From Daejeonella sp. (lineage in GTDB: Bacteria > Bacteroidota > Bacteroidia > Sphingobacteriales > Sphingobacteriaceae), in assembly GCF_017495225.1 (NCBI RefSeq), contig NZ_JAFEIG010000035.1:1-52402 (forward strand): 52,402 bases of DNA. The letters are read 5' to 3'. The position numbers and the translations under genes were made by a program. The notes beneath the pieces were generated by a model that worked only from the letters and a program-made list of their open reading frames with translations, was not told where the DNA came from and did no database searches. The stretch's first letter is position 1, and every line of letters starts with the position of its first letter. Positions 34,814 through 50,262 of this stretch are shown here, in pieces.

Positions 34814-35395
34814 TAATAAATATGTGAGTCAAGTTAATAGTGGTAAATAGATATTAAATGTAAAATGATGTAACTTTTTAAAAATACCACAACCTTTACC
34901 GCTCCGTTCGCTACACCATACCACTTTAATGGCAAGATTAAAACTATAAGAAGAAAGGAGGTTCGAAAAACTTCCAGTTACAGTTTTTAAAAATCCAAAA
35001 TAGGCATCAATAAGTGTTTCCCATCGCATTGCTAATAATATTAAATTAATTGATGGCGATTATTAGGAATTTGAAATATAACACACTATTAAAAATTTAC
35101 TTTATAAGTTATATTTAATAATATATATTGTTGTTATACTAAGCTTAAAAAAACATTTACGTTAAATCGTGAGTGGTTTTTTTGTGAGGTTTTCGGTAGA
35201 GACACACGGCCGTTTGAAATTACATTATTCAATAATTAATTGGGTAAATTAATGTGAATGGTACTTCGGAGACACACCACCCTGTGTAATTACAAAAACA
35301 TAATCAATTAAAAATCAGGCCATTTTATTCATCAAAATCCATATCAACATTCATTTCGGGTTTGAAAACGGTAGGCAGTAATTTATCAAAGAATT
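34814..35395. other. Intergenic region with two degenerate family B REPs
   Basis: No convincing gene was found. At 35198-35214 there is GTAG followed by the left half of the family B palindrome (GACACACGGCCGT) before the sequence diverges. At 35268-35289 there is a damaged copy (GAGACACACCACCCTGTGT). These are the outermost copies of the family B REPs that cluster around RAYT-2. A 66-codon minus-strand frame (34829-35029) has no recognisable features. Confidence 0.65.
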
Positions 35396-36910: not shown

Positions 36911-37100
36911 AGACACACGGCCGTGTGTCTCCTTGATAATAAATAATTAACCTGAATCACGGTGAGGAGACACACGGCCGTGTGTCTCTACGATATTAAA
37001 TAATTGATCTGAATGATGGTGAGGAGACACACGACGGTGTGTCTACGATATTATATAATTGAGCTGAATGACGGTATAGAGACACACGGCCGTGTGTCTC
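36911..37100. repeat. Tandem array of four family B REPs, about 56-bp period
   Basis: Palindromes lie at 36911-36930, 36967-36988, 37024-37044 (damaged centre) and 37079-37100, each followed by a similar A+T-rich spacer (ATTAAATAATTGATCTGAATG-type). The core is GACACACGGCCGTGTGTC. Copies two and three have the CTAC foot, so they are reverse-oriented. The array fills most of the 348-bp gap between the AraC regulator and paralogue A; the last copy provides the AraC stop codon. Confidence 0.9.
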
Positions 37101-38230
37101 TAAGCGGTGTATTTACCACTATCCGCATTAGCAAGCACATAATCACTCACCGAAACCCCCATAAATTTCTTGAAATTCTTAGAGAAGGTAAATCGAGAAT
37201 TAAATAAACATTTATTCCCCAGTGAGTCTATGGTGAACTTATCAAGGTATCCCTCATTTATGAGTGAAACTGCATAATTGATCTTTACCAAATTACTAAA
37301 ATCATTCATTGAATAATGACAGTAATATTTGAAAATAAAATCTACATGGCTCCTCGGTATTTTAAGTTCTTTAGATATAAAATTTGGCGTAAGCGTATTT
37401 TTTGAAAGAATAGAATTTGACTTTTGGAGTTTTTTAATATTTAGAATAATGCCATCTATTTTAGTCGCAAGATTATTATTTAACACAGTATCTCGTTCTT
37501 CTACTGACTTTAAAGGCTTAATGCTCCATATTAAAAACTCCTGGGCTTCATTGAGCTGAATGTTTTTCAACAAACTCTGTTCCCCGAAAATGATGACAGG
37601 ATTTTTAAAAATATAGACTAGTGCAACTAACCAAAGCAAAGATGAATAACGATAAAAATCATTGAGATTCATTCCCGAATCAGCGCCACTAAATAAGAAA
37701 TAATTAGAAAATGCCACCAATAAAAATGTAATAAAAAACATCAGGATTGTCCATGTTCTAATTGTTTTATAGCTTGTTTTTTCAAGTAGAGATCGTTTCT
37801 TTATTTTTACTAATCCGAGAACCAAATATAAAACTGCAGTAAAGTAAGCAATAGAAAATATCAGAAAAAAATAATAGCTAACAGTATATTGGATAGAAAA
37901 AACATCAATTAAAACAAGTATGGCTGGAAGAATAAAATGGACTAATTCTTTTTTAAGATTAACACTTGATTTTATAAGTCTGCGGAAAAATAAATAATAA
38001 ACTGGTACAATAAAGAAGGCAGCAATAAGCTTGATTTTTAAAGGACTATAGGTTACATCTAGAAGGCCTAGAACTTCCATTCCATTGAGGAAACGCTGCA
38101 ATCCAGCAAGAAATAATATGATAATTAGGTACACATTTATTTTCCGATCAGAATTCTGATTAAACAGCATCAACAACACCACAAAGAGGCTTAAAAAACC
38201 GACCAATAAAGATAGGATGCTCAAAAACAT
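37100..38230 (-). CDS. AraC-family regulator with multi-helix membrane sensor domain
   Basis: The 376-residue protein has seven or so hydrophobic helices in residues 1-215 (first: LSILSLLVGFLSLFVVLLML). A linker follows, then an AraC-type double helix-turn-helix: TPNFISKELKIPRSHVDFIFKYY and then FTIDSLGNKCLFNSRFTFSKNFKKFMGVSVSDYV. It is therefore a membrane-anchored DNA-binding protein. Its stop codon TAG (37100-37102) is formed with the first base of a REP element, so the last residues (SGKYTA) may not be the ancestral end. It is divergent from the tail-collar gene across 113 bp, making that gene cluster its likely target. Confidence 0.86.
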   Translation of the reverse strand: MFLSILSLLVGFLSLFVVLLMLFNQNSDRKINVYLIIILFLAGLQRFLNGMEVLGLLDVTYSPLKIKLIAAFFIVPVYYLFFRRLIKSSVNLKKELVHFILPAILVLIDVFSIQYTVSYYFFLIFSIAYFTAVLYLVLGLVKIKKRSLLEKTSYKTIRTWTILMFFITFLLVAFSNYFLFSGADSGMNLNDFYRYSSLLWLVALVYIFKNPVIIFGEQSLLKNIQLNEAQEFLIWSIKPLKSVEERDTVLNNNLATKIDGIILNIKKLQKSNSILSKNTLTPNFISKELKIPRSHVDFIFKYYCHYSMNDFSNLVKINYAVSLINEGYLDKFTIDSLGNKCLFNSRFTFSKNFKKFMGVSVSDYVLANADSGKYTA

Positions 38231-39276: not shown

Positions 39277-42200
39277 ATGAAAAACATTCTTGTACTATGC
39301 CTTTTATTTTTAGGCTGTTATAGCACGTTAATTGCCCAAGAAAAATCAGGCGTTAAATCTGCAATCGGTGCCGCATCCTCTAAAAAAGAGAATTTGGGGC
39401 TTACCCTTACCAAACCAGTAAATGGAGTAAGTAAAACTTTTACCATCTCTAGTATGAGTATGCAGGTAGGAATGCCCTACATGGGATTAAAAAGAGGAAG
39501 TACAGACGCAAGTGCATCTACACAGAATTATATCAAGGATTTGGGTTTCCCCTGGGGGATACGGTATCTATACAATACCTTTTCGGAGGATGCATTTACC
39601 GTTTCCAAAGGTTATTATAGTGATAGAATTGAGATAAACTGGGATATAAAAAAGAATCAAAATAAAATAATAAGTCTTACGGTTTACCGTACTGAAGACA
39701 TTAGTAGCGAAAAGCCTAACTGGGGAAAAGCGTTAAAAACATTAGCTGGAGATGTGGGAACTTTTTCTGATACCAATGTAGAGGGTGGAAAACTATATCG
39801 TTATAAAATTTTTGCTAAAGGAGTTGAGGCAGATGGCATAGAACTCCTTTATTCGAACTTTATTACTGGAATTGGCTATAGAAATCCAACAGGTGTAATC
39901 ACTGGAAATATAGCCTATACGGGGGGTAATCCGGTTAAAGATGTGTTAATTACCGCTAACCCAACAGGAAGTTCATTACGTTTTGGAAGCTCCTTAAAAG
40001 TACCTGCTGGCGGTTATATTTCAGTCCCTAAATTAAATAAAAGTCTTAAAGACTCCATAACTTTACAAGCATGGGTAAGACCAGAGAATCAATTATCTTC
40101 TTGGAATGATCAATTGGTTATTTACAAGTTAGAAAATGATGCAAGTCAGCCATTAACTTATTCATTAGCCACCGGCATGCAAAATGAAAGATATATTCAA
40201 ATGTTATTGGGTAATGAATATGTAACTGTTTTTGGGTATTATCCAAATGGCGAAATCGATAATAAGGGAGATGATATTTTAGTCCCTATTGAGAACATGG
40301 GTACATCATTCACCCATTTTAGTGTGGTAATAAGGGATAACAGACCTGCTGAATTTTATATTAATGGGCGCTTAATTAATGCTGCTTACCGAGATAAAAT
40401 GACTAGCATACAGGCCAAAAAAGGCCTGCCACCCGTTAGAGTGGATATTACTAGCGGAACTGTTAGGCTAAATACATCTACTTCTGGACAATCTCTAAAC
40501 TGGTCGAATTTCAAAATGGGTGGAAGAACCACTGCTTTTTTAGATGAATTTAGGGTGTGGGAGACAGCTTTAAGTCCCGCACAAATTCAACGCGATTTTC
40601 GTCGTTATTTGAAGGGAAATGAAGCATATTTGAACACCTACATAAAAGCTAACGAAAAAACAGGTGATTTTGCCTACGATTTAGCGCATACTGGCTTCAA
40701 CTTTCACGGCAATAATGCTAAATTGAGTAATTCGCCCATAGTACCTACTTGGGCTAATAATGAAGACGATATCAATAACATCCCTACCAGTAGTCAATTG
40801 GGGATTTTGGGTGTAACGGATGAATTTGGAAATTATGTAATTGCATCTGTTCCCTATAGTGGTAATGGCGATTCTTTTACCATTGTTCCCTCTTTAGGAA
40901 AGCATGAATTTAATCCGAAGCAGGAATTGGCATTTTTGGGTTCAGGATCTACGGTGGTTAATAATGTAGATTTTATAGACAAATCTTCTTTTGTTTTTAA
41001 AGGACTTGTAGTTTATGATAGCAGAGGGGTTTTCCCACAAACATCTGATGCGCCAATAACTGGTGATATCAAAGAAAATGAGGCTTATAATGCCTATACT
41101 GTAGGCAATCTTAAATATCAAAAAGGCGAGTATTGGGCTGAGAAAAATGCTGCAGGCACGATTCTTAGTCTGCGAAGATATGCCCCCATACCTGTACCAG
41201 GAGTTTCAGTAAACATAGATAATGTACCAGCAATTGATGCCAATAATGTTCCTATTGTTACCGATATTAATGGAAGGTTTACGATAGAAGTACCTATTGG
41301 ACAACATGCTATAAGCATCGGTAAAAGTGGTCATACCTTTGATTTGGAAGGCCGATATCCTGCTCGAATTAGATCGATAGTCAATAGGGACACAACCTAT
41401 ACCAATACCTATCAAGACTTTTTTGAAGATCGCGATGAGCCCATCACATTTATTGACACGACCAAAGTGATAGTTATTGGGCGTGTTGTTGGTGGTAACA
41501 AGCAGTCTGAACAGACACTTGGTTTTGGATATGACGGGACAAAAAAACATGAATACAGAGATGGAGGTGATGTTGAAAGAGAAGTTATTTACACCTCCGA
41601 CAATAACATTGGTAAAGCAAGAATAACCCTTGGTCACATGCCTACTGGAGCCACAAGTGTTACACCCGAATACAAAACCAGTTTTGAAACAAATAATCAA
41701 ACAGGAGAATATCGTGTCAAATTATTACCTCTAAATTATACTTTGTCTCAAAATGATTTAACATTTATTAGCGGAATAAGACCCGACAATAAACCGCTAC
41801 TAAGTGAAGATAGAGCAATCAATTTTAGCACGATTAAACCCTTGCAATATCCAACATTTACTCAAGGAAGCACCACAATTACAGGCAATCCCTACCAGGA
41901 GATTCTTAAATTCACACATTTAGCTACACCAATTTATAGGGTACTAAGCCAAAGCTCAGATTCGCAAATAACTGCAGATGGACAAACATATACCATAGCA
42001 GAAGATCAAGAGACGCCAATCTATAGCCAATTTGGTCTATATACCATTGAAATACAAGGCCAAGAACGTTATGCTAATTACGACAATAGTATTACCAATC
42101 CTGTAATTAGCACTGTTCCTGTAGAAGGAGGTGAAATTATTGCAACTAATAATTTAGCTTTAGAAAATAGTGTGAAAACAGAGGTTTCGTCAGAAGACCC

Positions 42201-45200
42201 AAGCATCCTAATTTATTCTTTTAAAGGCGGAATACCGAATACTGATGCCAATGCGGGATATAAACGAACAATTGATTTAAAATATAGAGCCAATGGAATT
42301 GAAACTCAATTAGAAAATTATAATTCTGAGGGGATTTTATTGGGAGGTGCTGCAGATGGCACACAAACTTTCGTAACTGCTGGCCCTGAAATACCTGATT
42401 TTGTTTTGCGTGACCCTCCTGGTTCAGAGAGCTCTGCAAGCATTGAAAAAGGAAGTTCATTTAGCTTTACCAAAGAAAGTTCATTGAGTGCGAACAATAA
42501 TACGGAGGCAAATGTTGCTCTCTCAATTGGTACAACCATAACCGTTGTTGCAGTGGTTGTTAAAGAATCAGAAATCACAAATGATATAAGCCAAGGCATT
42601 AGCATGTCTCAATCGTCAAGCGATGGAAAAAGCGTAACCAATACTTATACTTTTAATCAAACCATTTCTACAAGTGACGACCCAGATTGGATTGGCAGTG
42701 ATGCCGATTTATATATCGGAACCTCTGCAAATCAGTTTTATGGAACCTATAACAATTTGGTTGCATCAACAACGAGTAATAGCTCCCAGCCAATTAAAGT
42801 GGTACGCCCAAGTGGATCAAACGTATCAAATGTTTATCCAATAGTTAATCAAGCCTTGTATTTTAGTGATGCTCCAGAAAAAACATTATTTGTTTATTCC
42901 CAACGCAACATATTAGAAGAGCTAATTCCTAAGTATTTGGAATTTATCAGACAAATAGATGCAGGAACATTAATAGAAAATAGAGATGGCGTACTCTCAA
43001 GAAACGCTTATCAATCATCAGTTAACCTCTGGAGAAAGGTAATTTTAAATAATGAACTGTCGAAATATCAAGCTCTTAATGACAGAGATAAGCTTAAATC
43101 ATCCTTAGATTCAATTATTGAAAGTCTTAAGGACCCCAAAACCAATACCTTGTCAAACTCAGCCAAAGAACTTAAGAATTTATTGAATGCTACTTTTTCT
43201 GAAAATATATCCTTTGATGCTGGCGTGGGAGAATTTACAAAAGGCAATCAGATAGAACGTTTAACTGCTAATTCCATCACCTATACCGTAGATGTTAACA
43301 GCACTATTGGTTATAAATATGGGACCAAAGAAAATCAAACAGGTATTGAAATAAATGGTACTACAAGCATTGGAACTGGCTTGGAATCGTCGGAGGAAGA
43401 CTCAAGCGATGAAACAACAAATATTTCTTATACACTTAAAGATAGCGATACAGGCAATTTACTAAGCGTGGATGTTATTAATGCTTTTGATGGCAATGGT
43501 CCGATTTTTATCACCAAAGGTGGCGAAACTTCTTGCCCTAATGAAGGAGCTGAGCTCTCTAATTTCTACAACCCAACTCACCCAAATGCAACTAATCCAC
43601 AAGCATTAATTGAAAATCTTGAAGATAATCAACGTGTACCCCTATCCATCGCAACAAGCGCATTAGAAAGACCCGAAATAACCGTGACAGCTGCTGATGT
43701 TTCAGGTATTTTCGAAGGCAGAAATGCCGAATTTGTACTCAGACTACGAAATACAAGTAATATTAATAAAGACGCAACATTCAAACTTAGCGTGGATCAA
43801 AGCACTAATCCTGATAATGCCTTGATCAATATTGAGCCCAATGGAACCCTAATTAATGTGCCAGCAGGGCAAACAGTTTTGTACACCATGACCTTAAAAA
43901 AGGTAAAACAAGATCAGTTTGATTATGAAAACATTCGTGTGGTACTTGAGTCAACTTGTGATGGGAATGCAGTAGACGACGTATTGGTATCTGCTAGTTT
44001 CGTGCCTGCGTGCTCTCCAGTTACAATTATGACTCCATCAAACAATTGGTTGCTCAATAGAAATACGGCCGACCTTGATAGTCTTAAAACTAAACCTGTT
44101 AACATCAAATTGGGTGGCTTTAATGCTAATTTCGCCAATTTTGAGAAAATAAATTTAGAATATCGATTAAAAGGTACGCCAAACTGGACTGGATTAAAAA
44201 CATATTTTAAGAATCAGCAGGATTTTGATGCTGCACGAAGAGGCGGAAATAATGATATTGAGCTAATTAATGGCACTGAATTAAACTATGCTTGGGACAT
44301 TGCTGCTAAAGGTTTGGCTAATGGAGTTTATGAACTGAGAGCTCGTTCAAGTTGTTATAACCAAACAGCTTACGAATCGGAAATAGTAGAAGGTAAGGTA
44401 GATCTTACATCTCCTGTGCTTTTTGGAACACCAACACCAACAAGCGGCATCTTAAATTTAGGAGACGATATTAAATTGCGATTTAATGAACCCGTTAAAA
44501 CCAATAGCACCGTAAGCAGATTTGAATTTAAAGTACAAAAAAACCAATTGCCGGTAAATCATGAAGTCTCGCTAGCGTTTAACGGCTCAACCAATACCGC
44601 AACTATAGCTAAGCCAGCTATCTCTACCGGTGATTTCACCATTGAGTTCTGGTTAAAGAATACTAGTCCAGCAGGTACTTCAACCCTACTTAGCCAAGCT
44701 AACGGAATTAAAATTGAACTGATAGATAATGATTTAAGCTATACTATTGGCGGACAAAATATCAGGACAACAATAGCAAATGATACCACATTTAATTACT
44801 ATGCTCTTTCTTATGATGCGACAGCCAAAAGACTAAGCATTTTTGAAAATAGCTCCGAAAGGCGGAGCATAACAACCCCAACTTTGAATTTCACCAATGA
44901 AAACCCAATCATAATCGGTGGAAATACCTTCAAGGGAAATCTGCATGATTTGAGATTTTGGCGAAAATATATTACCAGAGAACAAGCCGTTATAAATATG
45001 AATACCCTGTTTAATGGCAATGAATTAGGTCTGAAGGGATTCTGGCCAATGAATGAAGGTAACGGAATTGTTGCACATGATTTAGCAAGATTTAAACATC
45101 TAGCTCTAGCAGGCACCAATTGGGATATTTTCCCCAAAGGTACTGCCTACAACTTTGACGGCACCAATTATTTAAAACTCGATTCTGTATCTAGAGTAAT

Positions 45201-47880
45201 TATCTCCAAAGAAATGGATGCGACAGTTTCCTTCTGGATGAAAAGTGGCCAAACTAATACAGGAACCTTATTATCAAATGGTTTTGATAGCAATTACGAT
45301 TTGACAGAAGGGAATGGATACCGTAATAAATGGTCAATCAATTTAAATTCTGCTGGAAGTATTGAGCTAAAAGCTGAAACAAGAACGTTTTCTTTTGGTA
45401 GCAGCAGAGTAAACGACGATAGTTGGCATCATATTGCCATGAGTTTGTCTAGAAATGGTTCCGTTAGAATGTATATAGATGGGAATGAAACCGCTTCATA
45501 CCCAAGTACTGATCTCGGAGGATTTAGTGGCACTGTTATTAATATAGGTGCACAATTAACTAAAACTGAAGCAAACACTTTCCCATTAACCAATAATTTC
45601 AACGGACAAATAGACGAACTTTGTATTTGGAATATGGCCAGAAGTGGCGCACAAATTAAGTCGGACCGCTATTTTGAAGTAGATTTTAGTAGCACAGGCT
45701 TACTTCTTTACTCAAACTTCAACAAACCTGAAGTAAGCATCACTGATGGGCCAAAATACTATTATCCAAAAAATGCATTTGAAAAAATAAGCACCTATGC
45801 TAAACTAAATAAGCCAATTTCCTATACGGATATCACACCTGGTATTAAACCTTTCAGACCTACAGAATCTCTTGTTGTTGAGGCAGTTATAAATGTAGAT
45901 GAGATAATATTATTACCTCAAATTACCGATTGGGCAAGTGTAGAAGGCAAAGTTGCTGATATCGTTGTGGCTAACCTAAATGATATGGCAGATAATAGGC
46001 AATTATCTCCAATTACTTGGCAAGCTTTCATCAACAAAAACCCAACAAAATGGTTCGTAGATGGGCATGACGATATTGTTAACCTGATGAAGAGATCAAA
46101 TGAGAATTTAACTTTTGAAATCACGCTAATTAACCAAGGCGGACTACCACAACCTTATTCTATTGATGTGCCTACCTGGTTAACACTCTCTTCAAGATCA
46201 GGTACTATCGCACCAAATACAAGCCTTATCTTGAAAGCAACAGTTGATAATAATTTGGCAATAGGAAATTACAATGCCATTTTATCGCTAAGCACCAATT
46301 ATAACTATAATAATAAAATTCAGCTGGATTTGAGAGTATTAGAGAAAGAGCCTATCTTAAACCTAGACCCGAGTAAGTTTAGCGAATCCATGAACGTAAT
46401 CGCCAAAATCAAGCTAAATGGTTTATTTACTGACGATATTTATGATAAAGTAGTAGCAATCGTTAATGGTGAAGTTCGTGGAATGGCCAACCTTATGTTC
46501 GATCAAAGTTTTAACGAATACTTTGTGTTTTTAACCATTTACAGCAATTCCATTGGCACAGAAAATGTGATGTTTTATATTTGGGATGCCTCAGATGGTA
46601 AATTAAAAGAGGCTACGCTAAATGGTAATTTCAGTATTCCATTTGTGCAAGACGATATTATTGGCACTTATACCACTCCAGCCACATTCGTAAATACCGC
46701 AGTAACTGGGCAGCAAATCTCCTTCAATCAAGGTTGGACTTGGACCTCCTTTAATGTTACTGATGTTAGATTTGGCAATTTGAATGCCCTTACAAAAACG
46801 CTTTCTTTAAATACATCAGATTTAATACAATCCAATTCACCTGCCCGATTTGATGCCTATCAATACAATGCACTCGATACTGCCAGCAATGGTTGGTTTG
46901 GAAGCATTTCTGATAATGGCGGCATTTCTACCAATAAAATGTATAAAATCAAATTATCAAAAGAGCAAAAACTAAATATCAAGGGTGTACCGGTCGACCT
47001 AAACACGTGGTCTATCAATTTAAATCAAAATTGGAATTGGCTTCCATACGTAGTCTCAAAAAATATCCCTATTGGAGATGCTTTAGCAAACTACAAAGCA
47101 AGTGATGGCGACCTCATTAAATCGCAATCAGAATTCGCAATTTACAGTCCTACAGTTGGATGGAAAGGCTCATTAAGCTACCTAAAAGTTGGCGAAGGCT
47201 ATATGGTGAAAACAAATACCGCTCAAAGCTTTAGCTATCCAGAGTATCTAAACCGATTAAATGCAAAAACAACTGCTTCTAAAGGGCTCTTTAAAGACGA
47301 TATAAAAATCAGCAATTTAAAGGATGAAAAAATTGCACGTCCAAATGATTTCGCCAAATTTCCAAGTACCATGAGTGCCATTGTGAAAATTCCTCAAGGA
47401 TACCAAGATCTAGCTTTTTACAATGAATCAGGGCAGTTAAGAGGGATCAGCAAAACACAAAACATACAAGGTGAAGAGCTCGCTTTCATTACTATTTTCG
47501 GTGATAAATCTGAAAACCTCATCGCACATATAGGCTTTGGAAGTGGTGCCAAAATCACCAATAAAATGATAAACTTTGCACCAGATGCCATCTTGGGAAG
47601 CATTTTAAATCCAATTGTGATTGAATTCCCAGAAGATGAGGTTAGTGTTTTCCCGAATCCTTTCGACAAAGATTTCGAAATTATTTTCAAGGGCTATGAT
47701 GTGGGAGATGCCACCATTACAGTTTACAGCATGTTCCGTCAAAAAATATCTGAAAGCACCTTCAAGGTGATGGATGAAGATAGGCGTGTAAAAATACAAA
47801 CTGATGTGCTTCCTGGAGTTTACATCTTACAAATCCAGTTTGGAGATAAGCTAATCACTAAAAAATTAATAAAAAATTAA
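39277..47880 (+). CDS. Giant LamG-domain protein secreted by the type IX system
   Basis: The 2867-residue protein has a signal peptide (MKNILVLCLLFLGCYSTLIAQ), a fibronectin-III-like segment (about 118-195) and a first LamG/concanavalin-like domain (about 231-435, ending FLDEFRVWETALSPAQIQ). A long middle part with carboxypeptidase-regulatory-like stretches and Ser/Thr-rich segments follows. Two more LamG domains lie at about 1762-1900 and 1958-2125 (DELCIWNMARSGAQI), then a BACON-like domain (about 2276-2357), a module shared with the next gene (about 2370-2465), and a C-terminal T9SS type A sorting domain (2789-2867, VSVFPNPFDKDFEI...GVYILQIQFGDKLITKKLIKN). It should be exported across the outer membrane and attached to the surface. 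LamG domains suggest binding of glycans or protein ligands. Its stop codon overlaps the next open frame. Confidence 0.9.
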   Translation: MKNILVLCLLFLGCYSTLIAQEKSGVKSAIGAASSKKENLGLTLTKPVNGVSKTFTISSMSMQVGMPYMGLKRGSTDASASTQNYIKDLGFPWGIRYLYNTFSEDAFTVSKGYYSDRIEINWDIKKNQNKIISLTVYRTEDISSEKPNWGKALKTLAGDVGTFSDTNVEGGKLYRYKIFAKGVEADGIELLYSNFITGIGYRNPTGVITGNIAYTGGNPVKDVLITANPTGSSLRFGSSLKVPAGGYISVPKLNKSLKDSITLQAWVRPENQLSSWNDQLVIYKLENDASQPLTYSLATGMQNERYIQMLLGNEYVTVFGYYPNGEIDNKGDDILVPIENMGTSFTHFSVVIRDNRPAEFYINGRLINAAYRDKMTSIQAKKGLPPVRVDITSGTVRLNTSTSGQSLNWSNFKMGGRTTAFLDEFRVWETALSPAQIQRDFRRYLKGNEAYLNTYIKANEKTGDFAYDLAHTGFNFHGNNAKLSNSPIVPTWANNEDDINNIPTSSQLGILGVTDEFGNYVIASVPYSGNGDSFTIVPSLGKHEFNPKQELAFLGSGSTVVNNVDFIDKSSFVFKGLVVYDSRGVFPQTSDAPITGDIKENEAYNAYTVGNLKYQKGEYWAEKNAAGTILSLRRYAPIPVPGVSVNIDNVPAIDANNVPIVTDINGRFTIEVPIGQHAISIGKSGHTFDLEGRYPARIRSIVNRDTTYTNTYQDFFEDRDEPITFIDTTKVIVIGRVVGGNKQSEQTLGFGYDGTKKHEYRDGGDVEREVIYTSDNNIGKARITLGHMPTGATSVTPEYKTSFETNNQTGEYRVKLLPLNYTLSQNDLTFISGIRPDNKPLLSEDRAINFSTIKPLQYPTFTQGSTTITGNPYQEILKFTHLATPIYRVLSQSSDSQITADGQTYTIAEDQETPIYSQFGLYTIEIQGQERYANYDNSITNPVISTVPVEGGEIIATNNLALENSVKTEVSSEDPSILIYSFKGGIPNTDANAGYKRTIDLKYRANGIETQLENYNSEGILLGGAADGTQTFVTAGPEIPDFVLRDPPGSESSASIEKGSSFSFTKESSLSANNNTEANVALSIGTTITVVAVVVKESEITNDISQGISMSQSSSDGKSVTNTYTFNQTISTSDDPDWIGSDADLYIGTSANQFYGTYNNLVASTTSNSSQPIKVVRPSGSNVSNVYPIVNQALYFSDAPEKTLFVYSQRNILEELIPKYLEFIRQIDAGTLIENRDGVLSRNAYQSSVNLWRKVILNNELSKYQALNDRDKLKSSLDSIIESLKDPKTNTLSNSAKELKNLLNATFSENISFDAGVGEFTKGNQIERLTANSITYTVDVNSTIGYKYGTKENQTGIEINGTTSIGTGLESSEEDSSDETTNISYTLKDSDTGNLLSVDVINAFDGNGPIFITKGGETSCPNEGAELSNFYNPTHPNATNPQALIENLEDNQRVPLSIATSALERPEITVTAADVSGIFEGRNAEFVLRLRNTSNINKDATFKLSVDQSTNPDNALINIEPNGTLINVPAGQTVLYTMTLKKVKQDQFDYENIRVVLESTCDGNAVDDVLVSASFVPACSPVTIMTPSNNWLLNRNTADLDSLKTKPVNIKLGGFNANFANFEKINLEYRLKGTPNWTGLKTYFKNQQDFDAARRGGNNDIELINGTELNYAWDIAAKGLANGVYELRARSSCYNQTAYESEIVEGKVDLTSPVLFGTPTPTSGILNLGDDIKLRFNEPVKTNSTVSRFEFKVQKNQLPVNHEVSLAFNGSTNTATIAKPAISTGDFTIEFWLKNTSPAGTSTLLSQANGIKIELIDNDLSYTIGGQNIRTTIANDTTFNYYALSYDATAKRLSIFENSSERRSITTPTLNFTNENPIIIGGNTFKGNLHDLRFWRKYITREQAVINMNTLFNGNELGLKGFWPMNEGNGIVAHDLARFKHLALAGTNWDIFPKGTAYNFDGTNYLKLDSVSRVIISKEMDATVSFWMKSGQTNTGTLLSNGFDSNYDLTEGNGYRNKWSINLNSAGSIELKAETRTFSFGSSRVNDDSWHHIAMSLSRNGSVRMYIDGNETASYPSTDLGGFSGTVINIGAQLTKTEANTFPLTNNFNGQIDELCIWNMARSGAQIKSDRYFEVDFSSTGLLLYSNFNKPEVSITDGPKYYYPKNAFEKISTYAKLNKPISYTDITPGIKPFRPTESLVVEAVINVDEIILLPQITDWASVEGKVADIVVANLNDMADNRQLSPITWQAFINKNPTKWFVDGHDDIVNLMKRSNENLTFEITLINQGGLPQPYSIDVPTWLTLSSRSGTIAPNTSLILKATVDNNLAIGNYNAILSLSTNYNYNNKIQLDLRVLEKEPILNLDPSKFSESMNVIAKIKLNGLFTDDIYDKVVAIVNGEVRGMANLMFDQSFNEYFVFLTIYSNSIGTENVMFYIWDASDGKLKEATLNGNFSIPFVQDDIIGTYTTPATFVNTAVTGQQISFNQGWTWTSFNVTDVRFGNLNALTKTLSLNTSDLIQSNSPARFDAYQYNALDTASNGWFGSISDNGGISTNKMYKIKLSKEQKLNIKGVPVDLNTWSINLNQNWNWLPYVVSKNIPIGDALANYKASDGDLIKSQSEFAIYSPTVGWKGSLSYLKVGEGYMVKTNTAQSFSYPEYLNRLNAKTTASKGLFKDDIKISNLKDEKIARPNDFAKFPSTMSAIVKIPQGYQDLAFYNESGQLRGISKTQNIQGEELAFITIFGDKSENLIAHIGFGSGAKITNKMINFAPDAILGSILNPIVIEFPEDEVSVFPNPFDKDFEIIFKGYDVGDATITVYSMFRQKISESTFKVMDEDRRVKIQTDVLPGVYILQIQFGDKLITKKLIKN

Positions 47881-48867: not shown

Positions 48868-49032
48868 ATGAATTACAAATTCAAATTATTTATCGGTTTA
48901 ATAATTCTATTTTTGTTTTTGGGATGCAAAAAGAAATCAACCTGCAAAGATGTAGTCCAAGGTGATTTTGAACTCGTAGAGACACACGGCCGTGTGTCTC
49001 CTCTTCCCACCATCAATAAAATGAAATCGTAG
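48868..49032 (+). pseudogene. Lipoprotein gene truncated by REP insertion
   Basis: A 54-residue frame starts 17 bp after the preceding gene. It has a lipoprotein signal ending LFLFLGCKKKSTC. After FELV the reading enters a family B REP (ETHGRVSP, from 48979) and stops at TAG 49030-49032, whose bases belong to the foot of the second REP. Only about 37 residues are not repeat-derived. It is best read as the 5' end of a lost lipoprotein gene in the surface-protein operon, cut by REP insertion. A functional short peptide cannot be excluded. Confidence 0.7.
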
Positions 49033-49259
49033 AGACACACGGCCGTGTGTCTCCTCCCCCCATCGATAAAATGATGATTTATGAGACACACGACCGTGTG
49101 TCTCTACCGAACCAAATAAATGATAAATTTATGAGACACACGACCGTGTGTCTCTACCAAACCCGAACCAAATAAATGATAAATTTATGAGACACACGAC
49201 CGTGTGTCTCTACCGAACCAAATAAATAACCATATTAGAGACACACGACCGTGTGTCTC
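48979..49259. repeat. Upstream array of six family B REPs
   Basis: Copies lie at 48979-49000, 49032-49053, 49083-49104, 49133-49154, 49189-49210 and 49238-49259. The first two have a GTAG foot on the left (forward) and a perfect GGCC centre. The last four carry the GACC centre and CTAC on the right (reverse). Spacers of 27-34 bp contain repeated CAAATAAATGATAAATTTATGA-like sequence. The array fills most of the space before RAYT-2; 49260-49335 holds only A+T-rich sequence. Confidence 0.93.
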
Positions 49260-49335
49260 TACCGCATTTAATTTCCATTTTCGATAATTTATTTTATTTA
49301 TATTTAATAAAATAAATCAAAGGATTAAATAGAAA

Positions 49336-50013
49336 TTGAATAAATTCAAAAATAAATATAGAATAGCATCACACCGAAAACCTGATTGGGACTATTCGGC
49401 AGATGCTTTTTATTTTTTGACCCTTGTTACACAAAACAGGGAATGTAATCTAGCAGAAATTATAAATATCGGTGATAAGGCATGTGTAAATCTATTAAGT
49501 TTCGGCGAAATCGTTGAACAGGAATGGTTTAAATCATTTGACATTAGAAAAGAATTAATGTCACACGAATTTGTAATCATGCCTAATCATTTACATGGCA
49601 TTGTTGAAATCAGTAGAGACACACGGCCGTGTGTCTCCATTAACAATCAAACAAGTAGAGACACACGGCCGTGTGTCTCTACACCAAATAAAATAAACGA
49701 TAACGTTGGAGACACACGGCCGTGTGTCTCTACGATACCCATTAAACGAAATCCACCAATACGATTACCAAAATCCATATCATCATTCATCGCGGGTTTT
49801 AAATCGGCCGTAAATACGAAAATCAATGATTTTATTGATAAACATAATTTATCCATTCCAAAATACAATAGAAAAAACCATTTTTTCCAACCCAATTATC
49901 ACGACCACATCATTAGAAATCAGTTTGAATATGATAATATTTCAAATTACATAAAAAATAATCCAGACAAATGGATTGAAGATAAATTTTATAAATCAAA
50001 ACCGCCGTCGTAG
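49336..50013 (+). CDS. REP-associated tyrosine transposase (RAYT-2) with three in-frame REPs
   Basis: The 225-residue protein is a Y1/HUH-family RAYT of a different lineage from RAYT-1. It opens HRKPDWDYSADAFYFLTLVTQNRE and has the HUH motif MPNHLHGIVEI (His85, His87). The catalytic tyrosine should be Tyr199 or Tyr205 (FEYDNISNYIKNNPDKW), with the same 6-residue spacing as RAYT-1. Residues about 94-132 are encoded by three REPs and read as repeated RDTRPCVS, just after the HUH strand. REP starts are 42 and 51 bp apart, both multiples of three. The start is TTG (an in-frame TAG lies two codons upstream). The stop TAG is formed by the GTAG foot of the next REP, so the original C-terminus may have been altered. 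Confidence 0.88.
   Translation: MNKFKNKYRIASHRKPDWDYSADAFYFLTLVTQNRECNLAEIINIGDKACVNLLSFGEIVEQEWFKSFDIRKELMSHEFVIMPNHLHGIVEISRDTRPCVSINNQTSRDTRPCVSTPNKINDNVGDTRPCVSTIPIKRNPPIRLPKSISSFIAGFKSAVNTKINDFIDKHNLSIPKYNRKNHFFQPNYHDHIIRNQFEYDNISNYIKNNPDKWIEDKFYKSKPPS
49616..49730. repeat. Three family B REPs inside the RAYT-2 coding region
   Basis: Perfect 22-bp palindromes lie at 49616-49637 (GTAG on the left), 49658-49679 (GTAG left and CTAC right) and 49709-49730 (CTAC right). The outer feet face each other, the same arrangement as in RAYT-1. Confidence 0.92.
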
Positions 50014-50184
50014 AGACACACGGCCGTGTGTCTCCTTCCCCCCACCAATAAAATGATAATTCATGAGACACACGACCGTGTGTCTCTACCGTATCAAATA
50101 AATGATGATTTATGAGACACACGACCGTGTGTCTCTACTGAATCAATGAAATGATGATTTATGAGACACACGACCGTGTGTCTC
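50013..50184. repeat. Downstream array of four family B REPs
   Basis: Copies lie at 50013-50034 (forward, GGCC centre) and 50065-50086, 50114-50135 and 50163-50184 (reverse, GACC centre). The order and spacers (CCCCACCAATAAAATGATAA, then ATGAGACAC) repeat those at 49032-49154, so RAYT-2 is flanked by direct copies of one composite element. Confidence 0.93.
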
Positions 50185-50262
50185 TACGGGTTTCCATAAT
50201 CAAAAACCATGTTTAGACCTTATTTTGAAATAAATACCTGAAAAAATATCGCTTTTAAATTA

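Follow-up and report, generated by a model that had tools for sequence, protein, structure and literature searches.

RAYT-2, a gene for a REP-associated tyrosine transposase, lies at positions 49336-50013 of the window, that is, of the whole 52,402-nt stretch of Daejeonella sp. contig NZ_JAFEIG010000035.1 that was analysed. REPs of its family are found on both sides of the gene and also within its coding sequence. The features discussed here, including one from elsewhere in the same genome, are as follows.

303-884, forward: RAYT-1, 193 amino acids, with in-gene REPs of another family at 555-654
35333-35371, forward: 39-nt fragment, 87% identical to the RAYT-2 stretch just past its insert
48976-49262, unstranded: upstream array, six REPs of the RAYT-2 family
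49336-50013, forward: RAYT-2, REP-associated tyrosine transposase, 225 amino acids, TTG start as listed
49585-49596, forward: HUH motif NHLH of RAYT-2, placed by alignments and codons
49609-49736, unstranded: REPIN-like inverted pair in the predicted RNA fold, copies 1 and 3 forming one long stem and copy 2 a hairpin in its loop
49613-49637, forward: in-gene REP copy 1, left GTAG foot, read S-RDTRPCVS
49655-49682, unstranded: in-gene REP copy 2, both feet (GTAG...CTAC), read S-RDTRPCVS-T
49709-49733, reverse: in-gene REP copy 3, right CTAC foot, read GDTRPCVS
49948-49965, forward: Y motif YIKNNP with the putative catalytic tyrosine Y205; Y205 and P210 are invariant in the alignment
50010-50187, unstranded: downstream array, four REPs of the RAYT-2 family
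C21:80105-80740: RAYT-3, found with RAYT-2 as query

With an HUH motif, a single putative catalytic tyrosine and a TnpA-like fold, RAYT-2 has the traits of a TnpAREP/RAYT protein, a Y1 HUH transposase. It matches PF01797 (E 3.9e-6) and NF047646 REP_Tyr_transpos (E 1.5e-13), the latter with 50.9 bits, a score below the curated cut-off of 80. A 74-sequence profile including RAYT-2 retrieved 4ER8 TnpAREP (E 2.1e-10) as its sole match at E up to 0.01, and 2XM3 and 4ER8 were the top Foldseek matches of the RAYT-2 model. TnpAREP/RAYT proteins with in-gene REPs have been published as subclass 2.4, whose traits, in the accessible part of Quentin et al. 2018 (PMC6006769), are the motifs YIxNNP, NH[IFV]H and WQ, a variable beta3-alphaC insertion with in-frame REPs, and flanking REPs with a GT[AG]G foot. 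The Y motif is of this form in RAYT-2 (YIKNNP) and RAYT-3 (YIENNP), and departs from it in RAYT-1 (YITENP). The variable insertion with in-frame REPs is present in RAYT-2, and each of the ten flanking copies at its locus carries a GTAG or CTAC foot. The HUH motif (NHLH) and W motif (FQ) of RAYT-2 depart from the subclass, and for this reason we term the protein 2.4-like and not a member; the corresponding motifs are NHVH and WQ in RAYT-1, and NHMH and WQ in RAYT-3. Because phenylalanine replaces tryptophan at the WQ motif, the activity of RAYT-2 is uncertain.

The palindrome GACACACGGCCGTGTGTC occurs three times in RAYT-2, at 49618-49635, 49660-49677 and 49711-49728, with spacings of 42 and 51 nt. 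Including their feet, the copies span 49613-49733 and share one reading frame, which confirms the arrangement described in the first-pass annotation. The peptide RDTRPCVS that it had assigned to all three holds for copies 1 and 2; copy 3 is read as GDTRPCVS. The first REP starts after NHLH-GIVEI. A Glu-Ile therefore does precede the insert as claimed, at the fourth and fifth residues past the second histidine instead of two to three. When up to 3 mismatches were allowed, GACACACGGCCGTGTGTC had 18 matches in the window, compared with a mean of 0.00 in 100 shuffles, and sequence-shuffle and codon-shuffle controls ruled out chance palindromes in the loops of RAYT-2 and other RAYTs.

The arrangement is that of a REPIN, with two inverted REPs and the GTAG feet outermost (GTAG at 49613, CTAC ending at 49733). 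Folded as RNA, the insert reaches -78.9 kcal/mol (z -15.1), and the outer copies form a long stem. In the AlphaFold model (mean pLDDT 81), the insert corresponds to a stretch mostly below pLDDT 50 (residues 99-116 and 126-142 are under this value), located between the strand at 85-92 and the helix at 148-169. The REPs are thus predicted to occupy a disordered loop that leads from the HUH strand to the next helix.

RAYTs and REP families of the window genome

Searching the 3.1-Mb genome with the RAYT-2 family pattern, with R at the variable base, returned 26 sites (backwards control 0), of which 16 are perfect palindromes and are listed on both strands. Half of the sites (13 of 26) are at the RAYT-2 locus, and the others are in four further clusters or places. 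One array of seven REPs of this family (C24:18451-18812) had no RAYT core in the RAYT searches of the genome. Within the window, an ORF of 2867 amino acids with a signal-like N terminus (39277-47880) lies between two clusters of the family. The TAG stop codon of RAYT-2 (50011-50013) is itself the GTAG foot of the first downstream REP; by its listed coordinates, a reverse-strand ORF (37100-38230) also takes its TAG stop from a REP foot, at 37100-37102. A shared unit of the in-gene and intergenic arrays was considered and set aside, as linker homology between them gave no significant support (p = 0.674 and 0.068). The 39-nt fragment at 35333-35371 is, judged by its similarity to RAYT-2, a probable remnant of a lost RAYT copy; a REP half lies about 90 nt before it (window 35199-35371).

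RAYT-1 holds three in-gene copies of GGACAGGTCGCGACCTGTCC or a shortened form of it, read as TGRDLS three times and placed after NHVH-ILFEI. Two further copies of this family lie upstream of the gene. Its insert folds as RNA at -68.6 kcal/mol (z -11.5), the outer copies again pairing as a long stem. In RAYT-3, the same place is occupied in frame by GTAG-GGGCGGGGTTCACCCCCGCCC together with a CTAC-footed partner that differs from it; related copies lie downstream. The first-pass annotation had placed different palindromes at one insertion point in RAYT-1 and RAYT-2, with outer GTAG and CTAC feet facing each other. Both statements were borne out, with the additions that the middle copy of RAYT-2 is two-footed and that RAYT-3 brings a third family. 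The three RAYTs of the RAYT-2 type found in this genome therefore carry, between them, three palindrome families at one site, each with its outer feet turned towards each other as in an inverted REP pair. A fourth RAYT, of a different kind (C35), is without such an insert.

Are RAYT-1 and RAYT-2 recent duplicates of one insert-bearing gene? This origin is rejected, since the proteins are only 34% identical, and the palindromes are unrelated. Each gene may have acquired its insert independently, but an ancestral insert could also have been replaced.

Loop hairpins in RAYT genes of Bacteroidota

An N-terminal core profile, used with an E limit of 1e-6, found matches in 16 of the 101 family genomes; with a limit of 1e-10, it matched 163 of 395 phylum-sample and 63 of 300 order-sample genomes. 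The 156 loci surveyed are the best scores of longer match lists and not a random sample. They yielded 160 unique N-core ORFs, of which 128 full-length genes were kept, including the three RAYTs of the window genome; the other 32 were set aside because HUH or WQ-Y was missing by motif, several only through motif strictness. The spacing between WQ and Y, before it served as a filter, measured 21 residues in 113 of 117 genes, and HUH and WQ lay 52 to 262 amino acids apart across the 128 genes.

Strict hairpins are concentrated in the loop of these 128 genes, with 96 compared with 1.8 in codon shuffles; outside the loop, five were found before HUH (shuffles 0.8) and one after WQ (0.5). At least one loop hairpin is present in 77 genes and no strict one in the remaining 51, among them L029, L030, L124 and L127 despite four to eight flanking hairpins. 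In an extended set of 170 unique genes (51 set aside), a looser count without shuffle control gave a loop hairpin or inverted repeat in 123, including a spaced inverted repeat in 54. The suggestion that in-frame palindromes in one permissive loop are a general feature is supported by this survey.

A rival reading is a passive history. REPs may hop or duplicate near a RAYT and settle in a harmless disordered loop without any function, so that frame and position reflect nothing more than survivorship. We regard this passive history as a serious possibility, somewhat short of even probability. The low model confidence of the RAYT-2 loop is in its favour, as is the use of other RAYT sites. In five genes (L026, L041, L116, L122 and L127), a second site 40-54 residues ahead of HUH holds an in-frame hairpin that matches the flanks, and three genes (L227, L233 and L239) have REP-like peptides just before WQ. 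Broken frames fit it as well. Among 48 motif-incomplete ORFs, some of which are one gene counted twice, the C core is in the same frame in 25 and in another frame in 12. Because relatives with broken frames exist, "always in frame" is partly a statement about which genes remain intact.

Another reading would place selection on the encoded peptides, such as RDTRPCVS, TGRDLS or VGATLAVAQ, for example for DNA or dimer contact. It draws on the reading phases of the hairpins: where the left foot is recognisable (62 of 96 loop hairpins), it is in phase 0 in 50, in phase 1 in 12 and in phase 2 in none, and of the 14 genes that hold more than one loop hairpin, 11 use a single phase, the second hairpin being unrelated in the other three. 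However, phase 2 would turn the GTAG foot into an in-frame TAG, and one shared phase needs no peptide selection because in-frame duplication alone yields it. The peptides moreover differ among families, the loop has low model confidence, and in Pedobacter the wobble sites are constrained. We therefore consider a function of the peptide very unlikely.

The idea that the encoded palindrome always belongs to the local REP family is supported in part. Of the nine loci in which a loop hairpin coexists with a repeated family in the flanks, eight show a match between the two. The association is not obligatory, as a strict loop hairpin is missing from 14 of the 23 loci whose flanks hold a repeated hairpin family, a finding that again suits a passive history. 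The fetched flanks, with median lengths of about 1.5 kb on the upstream and 1.2 kb on the downstream side, held a similar half stem for 24 of the 77 genes with a loop hairpin and none for the other 53; the reversed-query control gave 7 matches over 96 hairpins. At the genome level, the in-gene core of G172, G472 and G469 occurs once exactly, and tolerating up to 3 mismatches adds one or two copies (0, 1 and 0 in the backwards control). The notion that the in-gene palindrome is always alone is contradicted by G408, where three copies are exact and the total rises to ten when up to 3 mismatches are tolerated (2 in the backwards control).

Palindromes of the double-foot type are not restricted to RAYT genes across the phylum. 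At 20 fetched places, only 2 of 22 palindromes were in RAYT genes, and that candidate rule was rejected. Six of the 22 lie inside non-RAYT ORFs of over 900 nt (L174, L175, L176, L178, L180 and L189), and one more (L182) sits right where a frame of this kind begins, as a passive history would allow. In four of these cases, all from one genome (L174, L175, L176 and L180), palindromes of the form GTAGAGAC...GTCTCTAC with differing inner stems are read in frame (VET...SL) at one and the same loop of their host domains. These domains look like T9SS-type C-terminal domains.

Base pairing outside Pedobacter gave a mixed picture. In 53 independent pairs of relatives, 24 two-sided changes were seen compared with 8.8 expected, and 14 of the 24 still pair; among one-sided changes, pairing was lost in 96 and kept in 24.

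A gene-borne element in Pedobacter

In Pedobacter, a genus of the same family as the window genome, the RAYT gene is found at one syntenic place. Both flanks are common to L201 and to 15 of the 16 other named Pedobacter loci tested, the exception being P. arcticus. Read in frame within the gene are GTCGGGGCGACCCTTGCGGTCGCC and its reverse complement, with a variable spacer between them. Both arms are present at up to 4 mismatches in 18 of 21 named loci, among them P. alluvionis DSM 19624 (L202), and the three others are P. arcticus, P. ghigonis and a locus cut at a contig end. Related inserts are carried by L063, L145 and L154, candidates from a second genus. The 18 fixed bases of the arm, searched with no more than 2 mismatches, gave 42 matches in 22 of 22 Pedobacter genomes, all of them at the RAYT gene. 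Twenty genomes have two matches; G525, with a diverged second arm, and G619, in which the inverted pair has collapsed to a single hairpin, have one each. The backwards control gave one match in each of two genomes. In one Pedobacter, by comparison of L078 with L022, the inverted pair apparently collapsed in frame to one double-foot hairpin. This resembles the central-deletion origin of double-foot hairpins that Quentin et al. propose in the accessible part of their paper (PMC6006769).

The arms vary less than the rest of the gene at wobble positions. Across 21 orthologues, pairwise wobble differences average 0.184 and 0.226 for the two arms, compared with 0.399 and 0.542 for the two parts of the core (p = 1.2e-4, on the assumption of independent columns). 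Pooled, this is 0.20 in the arms and 0.46 in the gene core, less than half, where the choice of orthologues by arm similarity biases diversity downward. The test used 21 of 25 rows, leaving out L078, L087, L094 and L195. The core is intact in all 21 orthologues. A test of whether orthologues that lack the element are more often broken gave p = 0.02, but with 25 hand-sorted genes it was too small and too loose to be relied on.

The arms also changed in a paired manner. The long-range stem has 24 pairs, and 95.6% of its 504 cells are paired. Two-sided changes affect 12 cells compared with 3.6 in shuffles, and the covariation score is 0.111 compared with 0.068, neither value being reached in 500 shuffles, a test that kinship among sequences can beat without any structure. 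Two other counts do not exceed the shuffles, namely three pairs that hold double changes (264 of 500) and ten pair types (421 of 500). The two local hairpins perform about equally to the long-range stem (94.6% paired, score 0.133, 10 cells compared with 2.4). Judged by eye on the gene tree, the double changes amount in our reading to three events. Two linked pairs changed in a clade of five members, one more pair changed in L091, and one in L074. The changes in L091 and L074 fit only the long-range stem. All double changes are at third codon positions and keep the amino acid.

Template switching between inverted-repeat arms can keep them palindromic. One arm could in this way be repaired from the other without selection, and such mutational upkeep would yield paired changes like those in L091 and L074. 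It should not, however, reduce divergence between species, and the pooled arm difference is under half that of the core. We consider it highly improbable as the explanation. A passive history alone likewise leaves the low wobble diversity and the paired synonymous changes of Pedobacter unexplained, and no close copy was found from which the element could re-insert.

Because the arm matches are confined to the RAYT gene, wobble difference is low and the paired changes are synonymous, the Pedobacter palindrome looks selected as nucleic acid. A hairpin confined to the RAYT gene and with paired-base changes may have a job, which in Pedobacter would most likely be that of a putative cis site for its own RAYT. 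Its foot is GTCG/CGAC, that of RAYT-3 GTAG/CTAC. In the accessible part of PMC8266576, TnpAREP proteins depend to differing degrees on the foot tetranucleotide, and altering the foot can shift the choice of cleavage site; the GTCG foot may for this reason mark an altered use.

Interpretation and known systems

Position, frame and family match of the in-gene REPs, the low-confidence model loop, and the wobble constraint and paired changes of Pedobacter are results of computation. To explain them, we propose that RAYT-2 is a TnpAREP of the 2.4 type with REPs around and inside it, held in a tolerated loop, with selection on the nucleic acid in Pedobacter and a predicted use of the hairpin in cis. 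As a whole, this proposal seems to us evenly poised between right and wrong.

In this proposal, the REP family surrounds RAYT-2 and also occupies its interior as an inverted pair that encloses a third copy, in a loop in which additional residues should do little harm. Because added residues should be near harmless there, only in-frame arrangements would persist. An element inside the gene would not easily be lost, and its upkeep, in Pedobacter at least, would come from selection on nucleic acid and not on the peptide alone. It could then be used as a cis-acting hairpin recognised by the encoded RAYT, either as ssDNA during replication or transcription or as structured mRNA. The effect would be negative feedback, and a cognate copy would stay linked to the enzyme after the dispersed copies vanish. 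Both ideas, a feedback device and a linked copy, were raised in the first-pass annotation, and the Pedobacter element, which is gene-borne, without close copy elsewhere and nucleotide-constrained, lends them indirect support. We infer binding by the RAYT, feedback, and a window family that behaves like the Pedobacter family; for the multicopy family of the window, passive tolerance is a live rival.

More tentatively, and with some doubt on our side, certain RAYT genes may own a private REPIN without close dispersed relatives, kept genus-deep by nucleic-acid selection as a cis regulatory or reference site. If so, dispersed REP families could start out from such a REPIN or re-emerge from it, with the window genome in the expanded phase and Pedobacter in the contracted phase. 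For annotation, a peptide like RDTRPCVS or VGATLAVAQ can simply be a translated DNA repeat instead of a motif conserved in the protein.

How REP families stay matched to their RAYTs and why RAYTs persist as single-copy genes seem to us to be open questions of the field. A cognate hairpin that is carried by the gene and survives its dispersed family would offer a direct approach to them, through RAYT level and REP movement. A REPIN, as reportedly described by Bertels and Rainey in 2011, is an inverted REP pair. RAYT-2 shares with it the two inverted REPs with feet outermost. It differs in that the pair lies within the coding sequence of the transposase and has a third REP in between, and the Pedobacter element differs by its lack of close dispersed copies. 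The palindromic elements of Rickettsia are alike as in-frame palindromes, and the REPs of RAYT-2 are not assigned to them. RAYTs are described as single-copy, vertically inherited genes in the accessible part of PMC8049555.

No report of a private or constrained in-gene element was found in the openly licensed literature searched. The restriction of all close Pedobacter arm matches to the RAYT gene and the wobble constraint of the arms were not found in print there. The accessible part of PMC6006769 likewise holds no statement that we found on an element without close copies, at one syntenic locus, with wobble constraint or covariation, unlike what is seen in Pedobacter. The TnpAREP subclass 2.4 of that paper is alike in combining in-gene with flanking REPs, as at RAYT-2. 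Di Nocera et al. 2013 (PMC3733652), in the part accessible, describe in-frame intragenic GTAG/CGTC REPs and, in other species, GTAG feet that provide TAG stops. The host genes of in-frame REPs named there are not RAYTs but others, many of them for DNA repair and synthesis, and the REPs linked to RAYTs flank these genes or overlap their ends. RAYT-2 is alike in both respects, with palindromes read in frame within a protein and a GTAG foot as stop codon. Given these two studies, as far as their accessible text goes, RAYT-2 is a further case of a published feature.
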